A stretch of 64,000 nt of DNA from Lacibacter sp. H407 (GTDB taxonomy: Bacteria > Bacteroidota > Bacteroidia > Chitinophagales > Chitinophagaceae): assembly GCF_037892605.1 (NCBI RefSeq), contig NZ_JBBKTU010000001.1:2294001-2358000 (forward strand), written 5' to 3'. The notes below the pieces were generated by a model that did no database searches, was not told where the DNA came from, and worked only from the letters and a program-made list of their open reading frames with translations. Made by a program: the position numbers and the translations under genes. Positions 59,735-63,010 of this stretch are shown in pieces (the first letter of the stretch is position 1; each line of letters begins with the position of its first letter).

Positions 59735-59875
59735 GAATATGTGTTTTTTCTGCCGGTAAATTAAGAAAACACCGGAAAATATGTCAAGAACTTTTCGGGT
59801 TCAGTTTTTGTTATCTCTCCTGAAGTTAACATTGGCCACAAAGCCGGTAACTGATTTTAAAGTAAATTGTATACT

Positions 59876-60973
59876 ATGATAGGACACTTCTTTTCCAAAT
59901 ACGATCCATCAGAAAACAGTAAATCAAAGTTTGAGCAATTGCTCGATCTGTTTACACAATTGTTGACTTATACCAGTGGTGATGTAACAGAAGCAATGGA
60001 TTGGCTGAATCAACTCGACCGTAAATTTCAACTTACCAACGATGAATATGGCATGGGCGATTTTATTGAAGAGCTGAAAGAGAAAGGTTATCTCGAAGAA
60101 AACCAGATCACCGGACAATTCAATATCACCTCCAAAACAGAACAAACTATTCGTCGGCAATCGCTGGAAGAAATTTTCGGCAAACTCAAAAAAACAAAAC
60201 AAGGCAATCATACAACGTTTAAGCCGGGCATGGGCGATGAGATCAATCCTGAAACAAGGCCCTTCCAGTTTGGTGATACATTGGAGCAAATTGATTTTAC
60301 AAGTTCTATCCGCAATGCACAGATCAACCATGGTATTGATAGTTTTCAGATGCGGGAAGATGATCTGGAAATTCGTGAAACAGATTTCAAAACACAAACA
60401 TCTACTGTGCTGATGATCGATATTTCACATTCAATGATCTTGTATGGTGAAGACAGAATTACGCCGGCAAAAAAAGTAGCAATGGCGCTGAGTGAATTGA
60501 TTACCACACGTTATCCGAAAGATACACTGGACATTGTGGTGTTTGGAAATGATGCATGGTCGATCGAAGTAAAAGATTTACCGTATTTGCAGGTAGGTCC
60601 TTATCATACCAACACTGTTGCAGGACTTGAATTGGCCATGGAGATTTTACGCCGTCGAAAAAATCCGAACAAACAGATCTTCATGATCACCGATGGTAAG
60701 CCAACCTGTTTGAAGATCGGTAAGAAATATTATAAAAATAGTTTTGGCTTAGATCGTAAAGTGGTGAACCGTTGTATCAATCTGGCGGCACAATGTAAAA
60801 AACTGAAAATACCCATTACTACGTTTATGATCGCAACCGATCCTTATCTGCAACGTTTTGTACAGGAGTTTACAGAAACCAATCATGGCAAAGCATTCTT
60901 TGCATCGCTGGATAAACTGGGAGCATTTATTTTTAAGGATTTTGAAAGCGGTAAGAGGAAGACAGTTTACTAG
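59876..60973 (+). CDS. VWA-domain protein, partner of MoxR-like ATPase
   Basis: 365 residues. A helical N-terminal region (1-165) is followed by a von Willebrand A domain with the MIDAS motif D182-I-S-H-S186 in VLMIDISHSMILYGEDR; a later FMITDGKPTC supplies another metal-contacting Asp. VWA proteins of this kind act with MoxR/RavA-like AAA ATPases as metal-insertion or protein-remodelling chaperones. The MoxR gene lies downstream but is separated by the GxxExxY unit. I prefer ATG 59876 to the TTG at 59867. The stop TAG uses the first base of the inverted repeat. Confidence 0.88.
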   Translation: MIGHFFSKYDPSENSKSKFEQLLDLFTQLLTYTSGDVTEAMDWLNQLDRKFQLTNDEYGMGDFIEELKEKGYLEENQITGQFNITSKTEQTIRRQSLEEIFGKLKKTKQGNHTTFKPGMGDEINPETRPFQFGDTLEQIDFTSSIRNAQINHGIDSFQMREDDLEIRETDFKTQTSTVLMIDISHSMILYGEDRITPAKKVAMALSELITTRYPKDTLDIVVFGNDAWSIEVKDLPYLQVGPYHTNTVAGLELAMEILRRRKNPNKQIFMITDGKPTCLKIGKKYYKNSFGLDRKVVNRCINLAAQCKKLKIPITTFMIATDPYLQRFVQEFTETNHGKAFFASLDKLGAFIFKDFESGKRKTVY

Positions 60974-61509
60974 TCAGAACCATGATTTGGGTGGATTTGG
61001 AAGATGAAGAAGAGAAGTATACAGAATAGAGTAGCTACGCTTTTTATATAACCTAAGAATTACCTGAATGATGGCGCAACCAGACTATAAATACAAAGAG
61101 ATAACAGAGAAAATCATTGGTGCAGCAATGAAAGTTCATTCAGCTCTCGGCAACGGGTTTCAGGAAGTAATTTATCAACGGGCGTTGGAAATTGAGTTGG
61201 CAGATTCCGGTGTGCAATTTAAGCGGGAGTTGGAAATGCCAATATTTTATAAGGGTATCGAAATAGGAATGAGGCGAGTTGACTTTTTCATTGAGGAGAA
61301 AATTATGGTAGAATTAAAAGCAATCATTCAGTTAGAAAATGTTCATTTAGCTCAAGCAAAAAATTATCTTGAAGCATATAATGTTCAGGTTGGGTTACTC
61401 ATCAATTTTGGCAGCATCAGCTTGCAATTCAAAAGACTTGAAAATTCAAAATACGTATCAATCAATAATCAAAATAATCAATAAAATCCACCCAAATCAT
61501 GGTTCAGAC
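60973..61509. mobile_element. 537-bp GxxExxY unit with 26-bp terminal inverted repeats
   Basis: The left end 60973-60998 begins GTCAGAACCATGATTTGGGT; the right end 61484-61509 is its reverse complement with a single mismatch (A/T at position 4). Directly outside both ends lies the direct repeat ACTA (60969-60972 and 61510-61513), as a 4-bp target duplication would leave. Inside is one gene, 61068-61484, whose stop codon touches the right repeat. There is no transposase. The outer 16 bp recur at 41200-41215. Confidence 0.7.
61068..61484 (+). CDS. GxxExxY protein (PD-(D/E)XK nuclease-like)
   Basis: 138 residues. The name-giving motif is G30-F-Q-E33-V-I-Y36 in ALGNGFQEVIYQRALEIEL. Downstream, D72 in RRVDFFIEE and E82-x-K84 in VELKA form the E...D...ExK pattern of PD-(D/E)XK nuclease folds. 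Members are common, short and of unknown function. This one fills the unit between two inverted repeats. The start could be either codon of the ATGATG at 61068. Confidence 0.88.
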   Translation: MMAQPDYKYKEITEKIIGAAMKVHSALGNGFQEVIYQRALEIELADSGVQFKRELEMPIFYKGIEIGMRRVDFFIEEKIMVELKAIIQLENVHLAQAKNYLEAYNVQVGLLINFGSISLQFKRLENSKYVSINNQNNQ

Positions 61510-63010
61510 ACTAGGTGAATTAAAGAAAAGCGGCTATCAATCAAAGAGTATCAAAGAAGAAGTGCGGCAAAATTTAATTGCCAAGCTTCAGCAAAACGAA
61601 AATGTATTTCATGGCATATTGGGTTATGAAGATTCAGTAATCCCTGATGTTGAGCGTGCTTTATTATCACGTCACAACATTTTGTTTCTTGGCTTGCGTG
61701 GACAGGCAAAAACAAGAATGGCCCGTTTGATGACGGAGTTACTCGATGAATATATTCCCGTTGTTGCAGGTAGTGAAGTAAATGATGATCCGTTTCATCC
61801 CATTTCTCATTTTGCAAAAGAATTAATTGCAGAGAAAGGTGATGCAACGCCGATTGAGTGGATCCATCGTTCAAAACGTTATGGCGAAAAATTAGCAACG
61901 CCTGATGTAAGTGTGGCCGATCTTATTGGTGATATTGATCCCATCAAAGCTGCGAATCTGAAATTGAGTTTTGCAGATGAACGGGTGATCCATTACGGCA
62001 TTATTCCACGCAGCAACCGTTCGGTGTTTGTGATCAATGAAATTCCCGATCTGCAGGCACGCATCCAGGTTTCGTTGTTCAACATTTTGGAAGAAGGCGA
62101 TGTGCAGATACGTGGTTTTAAATTACGTTTACCACTAGACATTCTGTTTGTGTTTACAGCCAACCCGGAAGATTATACCAACCGTGGATCAATTGTAACG
62201 CCGTTGAAAGATCGTATCGAAAGCCAGATCCTCACACACTATCCAAAAACAATTGATGTAGGATTGGCGATCACGGAACAGGAAGCAGCCATTCATCCGG
62301 AGCAATCGAAGAAAGTAGAGATCGGCGATTTGATGAAACGCATTATTGAGCAAGTTGCGTTTGAAGCAAGAAACAGTGAGTACGTCGATAAGAAGAGTGG
62401 TGTGAGTGCGAGGTTAACGATCTCTGCGTATGAAAATGCAGTGAGTACGGCAGAGCTTCGTGCCATTCAGAATAAAGAAAAACAAACACAAGTGTGGATG
62501 AGTGATTTGATCGGTGTAATTCCGTCGATCACCGGAAAAATTGAATTAGTATATGAAGGCGAACAGGAAGGTCCATACCAGGTGGCGTTTCATTTGTTGG
62601 ATAAAGCCATCCGTACGCAGTTTCTGCAATACTTTCCCAACCCCGAGCAAATTAAAAAACGCAGAGGCGAAGCGGCAACCGATAATCCTTATAAATCAAT
62701 TAGCAATTGGTTCGACAAAGGCAATCAGTTAAGCTTATTGATGAATACAAAAGATGAAGCAAAAATTCAGCAGTTGTACAGTGTTGATGGATTGTATCCG
62801 CTTGTGAAAAAATATTTCAAAGGTGCCAATGAAAAACAGTCAGCGCTTTTAATGGAGTTTGTACTGCATGGGTTGGCTGCTTATTCCATCATCAGTAAAA
62901 AAGTAGTGGAAGGACGTATTGAATTCAATGATCTGATGGGAAGTATCATTAATCTGAATACAAAGGGCGGCGAAGAAGAGGAAGATTTTGATAGCGACGA
63001 TTTAAATTAA
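61499..63010 (+). CDS. MoxR-like AAA ATPase (magnesium chelatase-related)
   Basis: 503 residues. AAA core: ILFLGLRGQAKTRMARL (Walker A, K71-T72), SVFVINEIPDL (Walker B region, with Asn-Glu instead of Asp-Glu), and FVFTANPEDYTNRG (sensor 1 type). The C-terminal half is helical. ATPases of this group work with VWA proteins such as the one at 59876. The start ATG (61499-61501) lies inside the right inverted repeat of the GxxExxY unit, so the first codons MVQT come partly from the repeat. A terminator follows. Confidence 0.9.
   Translation: MVQTLGELKKSGYQSKSIKEEVRQNLIAKLQQNENVFHGILGYEDSVIPDVERALLSRHNILFLGLRGQAKTRMARLMTELLDEYIPVVAGSEVNDDPFHPISHFAKELIAEKGDATPIEWIHRSKRYGEKLATPDVSVADLIGDIDPIKAANLKLSFADERVIHYGIIPRSNRSVFVINEIPDLQARIQVSLFNILEEGDVQIRGFKLRLPLDILFVFTANPEDYTNRGSIVTPLKDRIESQILTHYPKTIDVGLAITEQEAAIHPEQSKKVEIGDLMKRIIEQVAFEARNSEYVDKKSGVSARLTISAYENAVSTAELRAIQNKEKQTQVWMSDLIGVIPSITGKIELVYEGEQEGPYQVAFHLLDKAIRTQFLQYFPNPEQIKKRRGEAATDNPYKSISNWFDKGNQLSLLMNTKDEAKIQQLYSVDGLYPLVKKYFKGANEKQSALLMEFVLHGLAAYSIISKKVVEGRIEFNDLMGSIINLNTKGGEEEEDFDSDDLN

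Follow-up and report, generated by a model that had tools for sequence, protein, structure and literature searches.

Does a small predicted nuclease gene that lies between two inverted repeats in an operon belong together with those repeats, and if so, what has brought them there? The question is raised by a 537-bp block in a 64,000-nucleotide stretch of the Lacibacter sp. H407 genome (the window), in which a gene of the GxxExxY family separates genes for a VWA-domain protein and a MoxR-like ATPase. An original prediction, made from the DNA letters, had read the block as having the anatomy of a mobile element: near-perfect 26-bp terminal inverted repeats, an ACTA direct repeat immediately outside them, one interior gene and no transposase. 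The placement between the two genes was correct, the repeats are real (25 of 26 positions complementary), and the GxxExxY gene is the only open reading frame (ORF) of at least 80 amino acids between them, with no match to a transposase family in a Pfam search of the unit. Inverted 14-mers spaced 350-750 bp apart occur in the 64-kb window at this cassette only (nine overlapping pairs, while 20 shuffles gave 0-2 pairs each), and there is no Rfam match at 60000-62500. From the comparisons below, the block appears to be one member of a widespread compact family in which a gene for a predicted Cas4-fold nuclease stands between two inverted arms.

Inverted arms around GxxExxY genes

Flanking inverted repeats were looked for around the best 80 of 572 confirmed GxxExxY candidates, whose record titles name Bacteroidota, Calditrichota, Ignavibacteria, Anaerolineales, Poribacteria and others. 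Of these relatives, 52 have the box GTC[TA]GAAC[CT] in the left flank, 45 have it in the right and 35 in both, where 0.0105 per flank is expected. An inverted-repeat score of at least 18 was reached by 55 of the 80, against 42 of 1710 same-length intervals of the same loci. Since these relatives had been picked by similarity, a class-wide sample of 40 genomes was drawn, 28 of which, the window's own included, carry PF13366 genes. It yielded 78 rows, of which nine (partial, interrupted or second-domain) were left out and 69 genes analysed, five of them from the window's genome and with the interrupted gene L266 kept. Here the score was reached by 49 of 69 GxxExxY genes and by 5 of 63 neighbouring ORFs of these loci (Fisher 3e-14).

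These comparisons show, at the level of sequence, that a GxxExxY gene and its lineage-matched arms form a unit. The proposed link between the family and terminal repeats thus has strong support in Bacteroidota and at loci from several further phyla, and the check for further copies around GxxExxY genes did not refute it. The repeats are not private to this cassette, in so far as such arms surround other GxxExxY genes, while within the window this is the only such place. That the locus is an ordinary operon gene with repeats arisen by chance would agree with its co-orientation with the operon and with purifying selection; the enrichment in the relatives, in the class sample and over the window shuffles lies so far beyond chance and controls that this explanation is barely credible.

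The GxxExxY protein

The window protein matches TIGR04256 at 133.6 bits (cut-off 35) and PF13366 (PDDEXK_3), its sole Pfam match, at 133.4 bits (cut-off 22). Across 26 aligned sequences, one of them the window's, 42 columns are invariant, and they comprise the predicted PD-(D/E)XK-like residues E33, D72, E82 and K84 in addition to Q96 and Y100. An AlphaFold2 model (predicted local distance difference test, pLDDT, 89.9) has as its top PDB matches the chains of SSO0001, a Cas4, in entry 4ic1 (Foldseek E 5e-4; VIA Z 9.4, root-mean-square deviation 3.3 over 101 aligned residues). Other structural matches (BpuSI, HsdR, Hjc and others) have mid-level Z and were taken to reflect a shared fold only, the comparison covering the families in the match list. 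A sequence search for a structurally solved relative returned nothing useful, PADLOC gave a single weak match to Cas4b (E 0.003), and PHROGs gave a match to one family of unknown function. The model and the alignment make it likely that the GxxExxY protein is a nuclease with a complete active site.

Arms as arrays of iterons

The arms appear to follow a common plan, in which an end box or first iteron is followed by an array of short iterons. In the GTCTGAAC class TGATT-like iterons come after the end box at a spacing of about 9 bp, with autocorrelation of +0.12 at lag 9 and +0.09 at lag 17. The right arm of the window cassette, read on the minus strand, consists of the end box GTCTGAACC and about four to five (T/G)GATT iterons that run into the 3' end of the GxxExxY gene. 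Other lineages have the iteron types CACGGATG, CACAGAGG, CGCAAAGA and ACGAAT, and in the class sample a small excess is spread over lags 8-10 (+0.04, +0.04, +0.03), with control flanks at about 0 to -0.02. Arms of the CGCTAAGGCACAAAGACGCAAAG type belong to another lineage than the window's.

The linkers between iterons often differ between the two arms of one locus, and G-U mismatches are not in excess of A-C mismatches (56 vs 66 in 50 loci, and 106 vs 121 in 49 loci of the class sample). The arms therefore look less like an RNA stem than like putative sites on DNA to which a protein binds. Between genomes, similar proteins tend to have similar arms (Mantel rho 0.26, p 5e-4; the highest of 2000 permutations was 0.135), and the nearest-neighbour arm score in this comparison of arms with proteins from different genomes was 11.8 vs 6.7. 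Such a correlation is what one would expect of a co-inherited or co-evolving pair.

Fit into operons without target duplication

The direct ACTA repeat, which the original prediction had taken for a duplication, is coincidental coding sequence. The left copy falls within the Tyr-stop of the VWA gene (TAC TAG) and the right copy within ACA CTA GGT (Thr-Leu-Gly) of MoxR, and congeners vary at these places as coding sequence does (TAT-TAA or TAT-TAG on the left, ACA-TTA or ACT-TTA on the right). Among 81 loci examined, none of the 51 with two ends shows a target duplication, outer-flank identity being that of shuffled pairs at lengths 1-13. What stands of the mobile-element anatomy is accordingly the unit of one gene within inverted repeats, and the 4-bp duplication of the insertion sequence (IS) kind is lost.

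Between co-directional genes, 34 of the 51 units are co-oriented and one is not (the remaining 16 have other or unknown neighbours); the corresponding figures in the class sample are 43 and 3, with 23 other. The left end coincides with an upstream stop codon in 28 of the 51 loci and at 2.4% of random positions; in 12 of the loci the stop is the TGA within GTCTGA. At the right end an ATG lies one base outside the arm in 12 loci and inside it (MVQT) in 4; a start codon within the wider search window at this end often arises by chance (27%). In the window, the MoxR start codon at 61499 lies inside the right arm and the protein begins with MVQT from arm sequence. In L014, L017 and L022 too, the downstream gene takes its start codon and opening residues (MVQ or MVQT) from this right-arm sequence, ATGGTTCAGAC, which is left as a scar in the cassette-less loci L094 and L150. 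Repeats of an inserted unit thus supply start and stop codons of neighbouring genes.

These observations show, by sequence criteria, units that are often flush between operon genes, mostly co-oriented and free of target duplication. Ordinary operon genes are co-oriented too, so that co-orientation reflects fit to operons and not a mechanism. Many units leave little room for a promoter, the ATG in L004 coming immediately after the arm; a unit may therefore persist best where an operon transcribes it, which would explain both the co-orientation and the stop and start junctions, and its arms can supply a neighbour's start or stop codon. The downstream neighbours vary, 10 chosen of the 51 loci including by Pfam aminotransferase IV, aconitase C, phosphomethylpyrimidine kinase, HsdS, HsdM, DNA methylase and RhuM. 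Type I restriction-modification or RhuM genes adjoin the cassettes in L042, L068 and L089 by Pfam, and in L048, L050, L055 and others as judged from N-termini.

Second sites, orphan arms and doublets

Two cassettes of one Fibrimonadaceae metagenome bin (L085 and L087) are 94.6% identical over 466 bp with non-homologous flanks, and the similarity stops within 3 bp of both arm ends. The comparison shows, so far as an assembled bin can, the same unit at two unrelated sites of one genome. Nonsynonymous divergence (dN) is 0.003 and synonymous divergence (dS) 0.28, which indicates that the units are under purifying selection and were not copied recently.

In the same bin, 81 arm matches merge to 44 places, 3 of which are cassettes, leaving at least 41 arm-only places; this is a lower bound, as 40 of 97 candidates were scored. 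Three pairs among them are doublets of 125-136 bp. With at most 3 mismatches, the 19-bp end sequence is matched 14 times in the window's genome, two of the matches being the cassette's own arms, where the reversed control has 2; one pair forms a 90-bp doublet. Arm-only copies and arm doublets are thereby shown, by these matches, to share genomes with cassettes. That the gene has a lineage-matched DNA partner suggests where short intergenic repeat arrays may come from. The solo-doublet site holds the doublet also in G156 and G147 and a simple hairpin in G150 and G153; judged from these sequences, different elements seem to replace one another at this one terminator-like position. A different palindromic sequence, CCCC..CCCCTAAAGGGGAG, lies at this site in G148, G151 and G149 (L211, L212 and L213).

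Orphan arms need movement in trans in any case, and no recognised transposase lies in the unit. Both facts would suit a GxxExxY protein that is a mere passenger, with the arms recognised in trans by some transposase or host recombinase. Against this, arm sequence follows the GxxExxY lineage between genomes. The REP-associated tyrosine transposases (RAYTs) of the window's genome were considered as movers and rejected, the best flanking repeats of its four Y1 genes being of other sequence (best repeats were compared, with no box scan). With these Y1 genes as the only recombinases considered, a passenger role is on balance rather unlikely. Two Y1 (RAYT-type) genes, L146 and L147, are flanked by CTCC-rich repeats (AGCTCCGTAGGAGCG in L147) that do not resemble GxxExxY arms.

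Two junctions compared within the genus

The VWA-MoxR junction was readable in 11 of 14 genomes. G000 and G156 hold the window cassette, and five others (G147, G149, G150, G153 and G154) hold another GxxExxY cassette with GCCGGGAAG-type arms, identified by Pfam in G149 and by tblastn in the other four. G083 and G148 keep only a right-arm scar, which serves as the MoxR start, and G155 and G157 have other sequence with neither cassette nor scar. Related genomes with the same gene order and without the repeats had been named as a refutation; the gene order does recur in this form, in company with a scar, with another cassette or, in the last two genomes, with neither. More widely, a GxxExxY gene was found at the MoxR locus in 4 of 30 loci (the window's own, L103, L115 and L119), the 30 being taken from 128 genomes of the family with a match.

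At the junction of the FAA-hydrolase and flavin-reductase genes, a GxxExxY unit with AACCGCTAAG-type arms is present in G000, G083 and G151; G147 and G155 align throughout (at alignment level only). In G154 the GxxExxY gene is diverged and its left array is different; G153 and G157 have a cassette with TTATGAGTTATGAG-type arms around a four-helix gene (23S_rRNA_IVP). The left arm in G148 (L183) is directly followed by a 155-residue ORF with no Pfam match, possibly a gene swap within a cassette. Short sequence is found in G156 (arm-like) and G158, the upstream DNA is different in G149 and G150, and G152 is split. Congeneric species thus hold different units at both junctions, either different GxxExxY units or, at one of them, a four-helix unit of the type found in 23S rRNA intervening sequences (IVSs).

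Eight VWA-MoxR units (two congeners and L014-L019) have arms that are 85% and 83% identical over 28 pairs, while the stretch 46-71 bases from the left end is 30% identical in an ungapped, crude comparison that is partly coding in the shorter units. The GxxExxY gene itself differs between G000 and G156 with dN 0.12 and saturated dS. The high arm identity in orthologous units indicates that the arms are maintained, which would fit either lasting activity or a role in place.

The arms could accordingly be binding sites that act where they stand, in autoregulation or DNA looping of the operon, with the unit spreading only by homologous recombination between flanking genes and orphan arms being decayed copies or decoys. 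Arms conserved in situ, cassettes at the same junction in several species, and different cassettes at one junction in congeners, as whole-junction exchange would leave them, all agree with this. Recombination in the flanks would, however, neither place 95%-identical units that end at their arms at unrelated sites nor spread arms of about 44 bp by the dozen over a genome, and we hold this account to be unlikely.

Four-helix units

A set of 35 PF05635 genes (L137-L143 and L302-L329) was assembled from 28 loci out of 114 matches, one of them partial, and 7 genes of the window's genome, with the ORFs of the GxxExxY class sample as controls. The score of at least 18 was reached by 23 of the 35. Their arms are sharply periodic at 7 bp (autocorrelation of +0.27 at lag 7 and +0.21 at lag 14), and all 28 genes with co-directional neighbours are co-oriented.

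Such S23-type units at an identical junction, together with long inverted arms and with a stop codon at one end of the unit and a start codon at the other, may point to an RNA element of the IVS kind: its arms would pair in the operon mRNA, and once RNase III or the unit's own protein had cut out the loop, stop and start codons would come together at the base of the stem. The rRNA IVS is excised by RNase III (PMC4990558). No wobble asymmetry is seen in any of the three sets of loci, the four-helix arms having 29 G-U vs 23 A-C mismatches (23 loci), and the linkers often differ between arms, which leaves this explanation improbable.

Features of the window

Table 1. Positions, in window coordinates, of the cassette, its parts and its surroundings.
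Feature	Position	Strand	Remarks
VWA-domain gene, upstream	59867..60973	+	final base of TAG stop is the first base of the left arm
Left ACTA	60969..60972	.	VWA codons, no target duplication
Whole cassette, 537 bp	60973..61509	+	boundary set by analogy with the L085/L087 units
Left arm	60973..60998	+	end box GTCAGAACC, then iterons (TGATTTGGG TGGATTT); box also in flanks of relatives
GxxExxY protein, 138 aa	61068..61484	+	predicted Cas4/RecB-like PD-(D/E)XK nuclease (TIGR04256, PF13366)
Right arm	61458..61509	-	26-bp repeat core 61484-61509; inner limit judged by eye
MoxR-like AAA gene, downstream	61499..63010	+	ATG and first codons (MVQT) are right-arm sequence
Right ACTA	61510..61513	.	MoxR codons, no target duplication

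A candidate mobility system

The explanation that we favour, and to which we give an even chance, is a cassette resembling RAYT systems and their REPINs (built of repetitive extragenic palindromic, REP, sequences), in which the nuclease acts on its own arms and drives their spread. The GxxExxY nuclease would bind the iterons, nick or cut at the arm ends, and transfer the unit by a duplication-free route, be it single-strand transfer or recombinational repair. Cassettes and orphan arms would spread in this manner much as REP and REPIN repeats are spread by RAYT transposases.

Several observations weigh against this explanation. No clean pair of empty and filled sites was found and no movement was seen among the loci compared, and L085 and L087 come from two contigs of a single metagenome bin, with a dS too high for a recent copy event. 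The 80-locus set was picked by similarity and includes orthologous insertions (e.g. L014-L019), random intervals reach a score of at least 18 in the 42 of 1710 cases mentioned, with a maximum of 40, and 20 of the 69 sampled genes are without strong arms, including L003 and L005 of the window's genome (L001 counts among them only through a mis-picked start). Ordinary operon genes are likewise co-oriented, and the correlation of arm with protein would also follow from plain co-inheritance. The main tension lies in the conservation of arms in place, which exceeds what an inert insertion predicts.

In the open-licence full-text literature GxxExxY was found in two papers, once in each, and searches of open-licence papers found no link between the family and repeats. 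A lineage-matched DNA partner makes the function of this common, little-mentioned family directly testable, and a Cas4-fold nuclease with iteron ends of its own would, if true, be a new kind of mobility enzyme.

Comparison with known systems

Nucleases of the Cas4 and lambda-exonuclease-like kind are described by the motifs E, D, ExK and QxxxY. The window protein shares their fold and these residues, but is a stand-alone protein of 138 residues between VWA and MoxR genes. Rpn proteins have a PD-(D/E)XK fold and are tied to MITE-like repeats (MITE, miniature inverted-repeat transposable element). The PD-(D/E)XK_2 'transposases' (TIGR01784, PF12784; Rpn/YhgA-like) are similar in associating such a fold with repeats, whereas the window protein matches PF13366 only, which is another family. 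In Thiomargarita the association with MITE-like repeats is described in PMC4853749. A free-standing homing endonuclease, an enzyme that cuts the allele lacking the cassette, would be compatible with the sharing of junctions among species.

Target-site duplications are not made by all IS families. With bacterial MITEs and IS elements the cassettes have in common terminal inverted repeats and small non-coding doublets, but they differ in lacking a transposase family match and a target duplication, and in their iteron-built ends. RAYT/REPIN systems consist of one gene flanked by repeats, with orphan single and doublet repeats in the genome, no target duplication and long vertical persistence. The GxxExxY gene is likewise flanked by repeats, its arms are dispersed as orphans and doublets (at least 41 places in the Fibrimonadaceae bin and, in the window's genome, 12 matches besides the arms of the cassette itself), target duplication is absent and vertical persistence is long; the enzyme is a PD-(D/E)XK nuclease here and not a Y1 HUH enzyme, and the arms are iteron arrays rather than REP hairpins.

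The 23S rRNA IVS with its S23 protein (PF05635) is alike in being a small ORF between inverted repeats, and a four-helix IVP cassette stands where congeners have a GxxExxY cassette. It is unlike in that the GxxExxY fold is different, the iteron period is 8-10 rather than 7, there is no sign of pairing at the RNA level, and the window cassette lies between VWA and MoxR genes, a protein-coding operon, and not in a 23S rRNA gene. For the 23S IVS of Coxiella, PMC4990558 describes a terminal stem of 28 bp and, ahead of the S23 ORF, tandem heptamers, which resemble the iterons, likewise of 7 bp, in four-helix cassettes. Arrays of the heptamer TAACTGA that immediately precede start codons in Beggiatoaceae, Cyanobacteria and Bacteroidetes (PMC4679880) resemble orphan 7-bp iteron arms.

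By the features compared, RAYT/REPIN systems and S23/IVS elements are the closest in behaviour, and the cassette is a member of neither. The GxxExxY unit links its family to the S23/IVS elements. We tentatively suggest, as a possibility that is somewhat doubtful, that iteron-armed selfish operon cassettes come in two parallel classes, with GxxExxY genes supplying the protein half of one and S23/four-helix genes that of the other. Each class would be mobilised by its own protein via a separate iteron code (8-10 bp and 7 bp, respectively), and the two would compete for the same junctions; the 23S rRNA IVS would then be a cassette of this kind left stranded within an rRNA gene, and arrays of heptamers ahead of start codons, e.g. 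TAACTGA, would be orphan arms.

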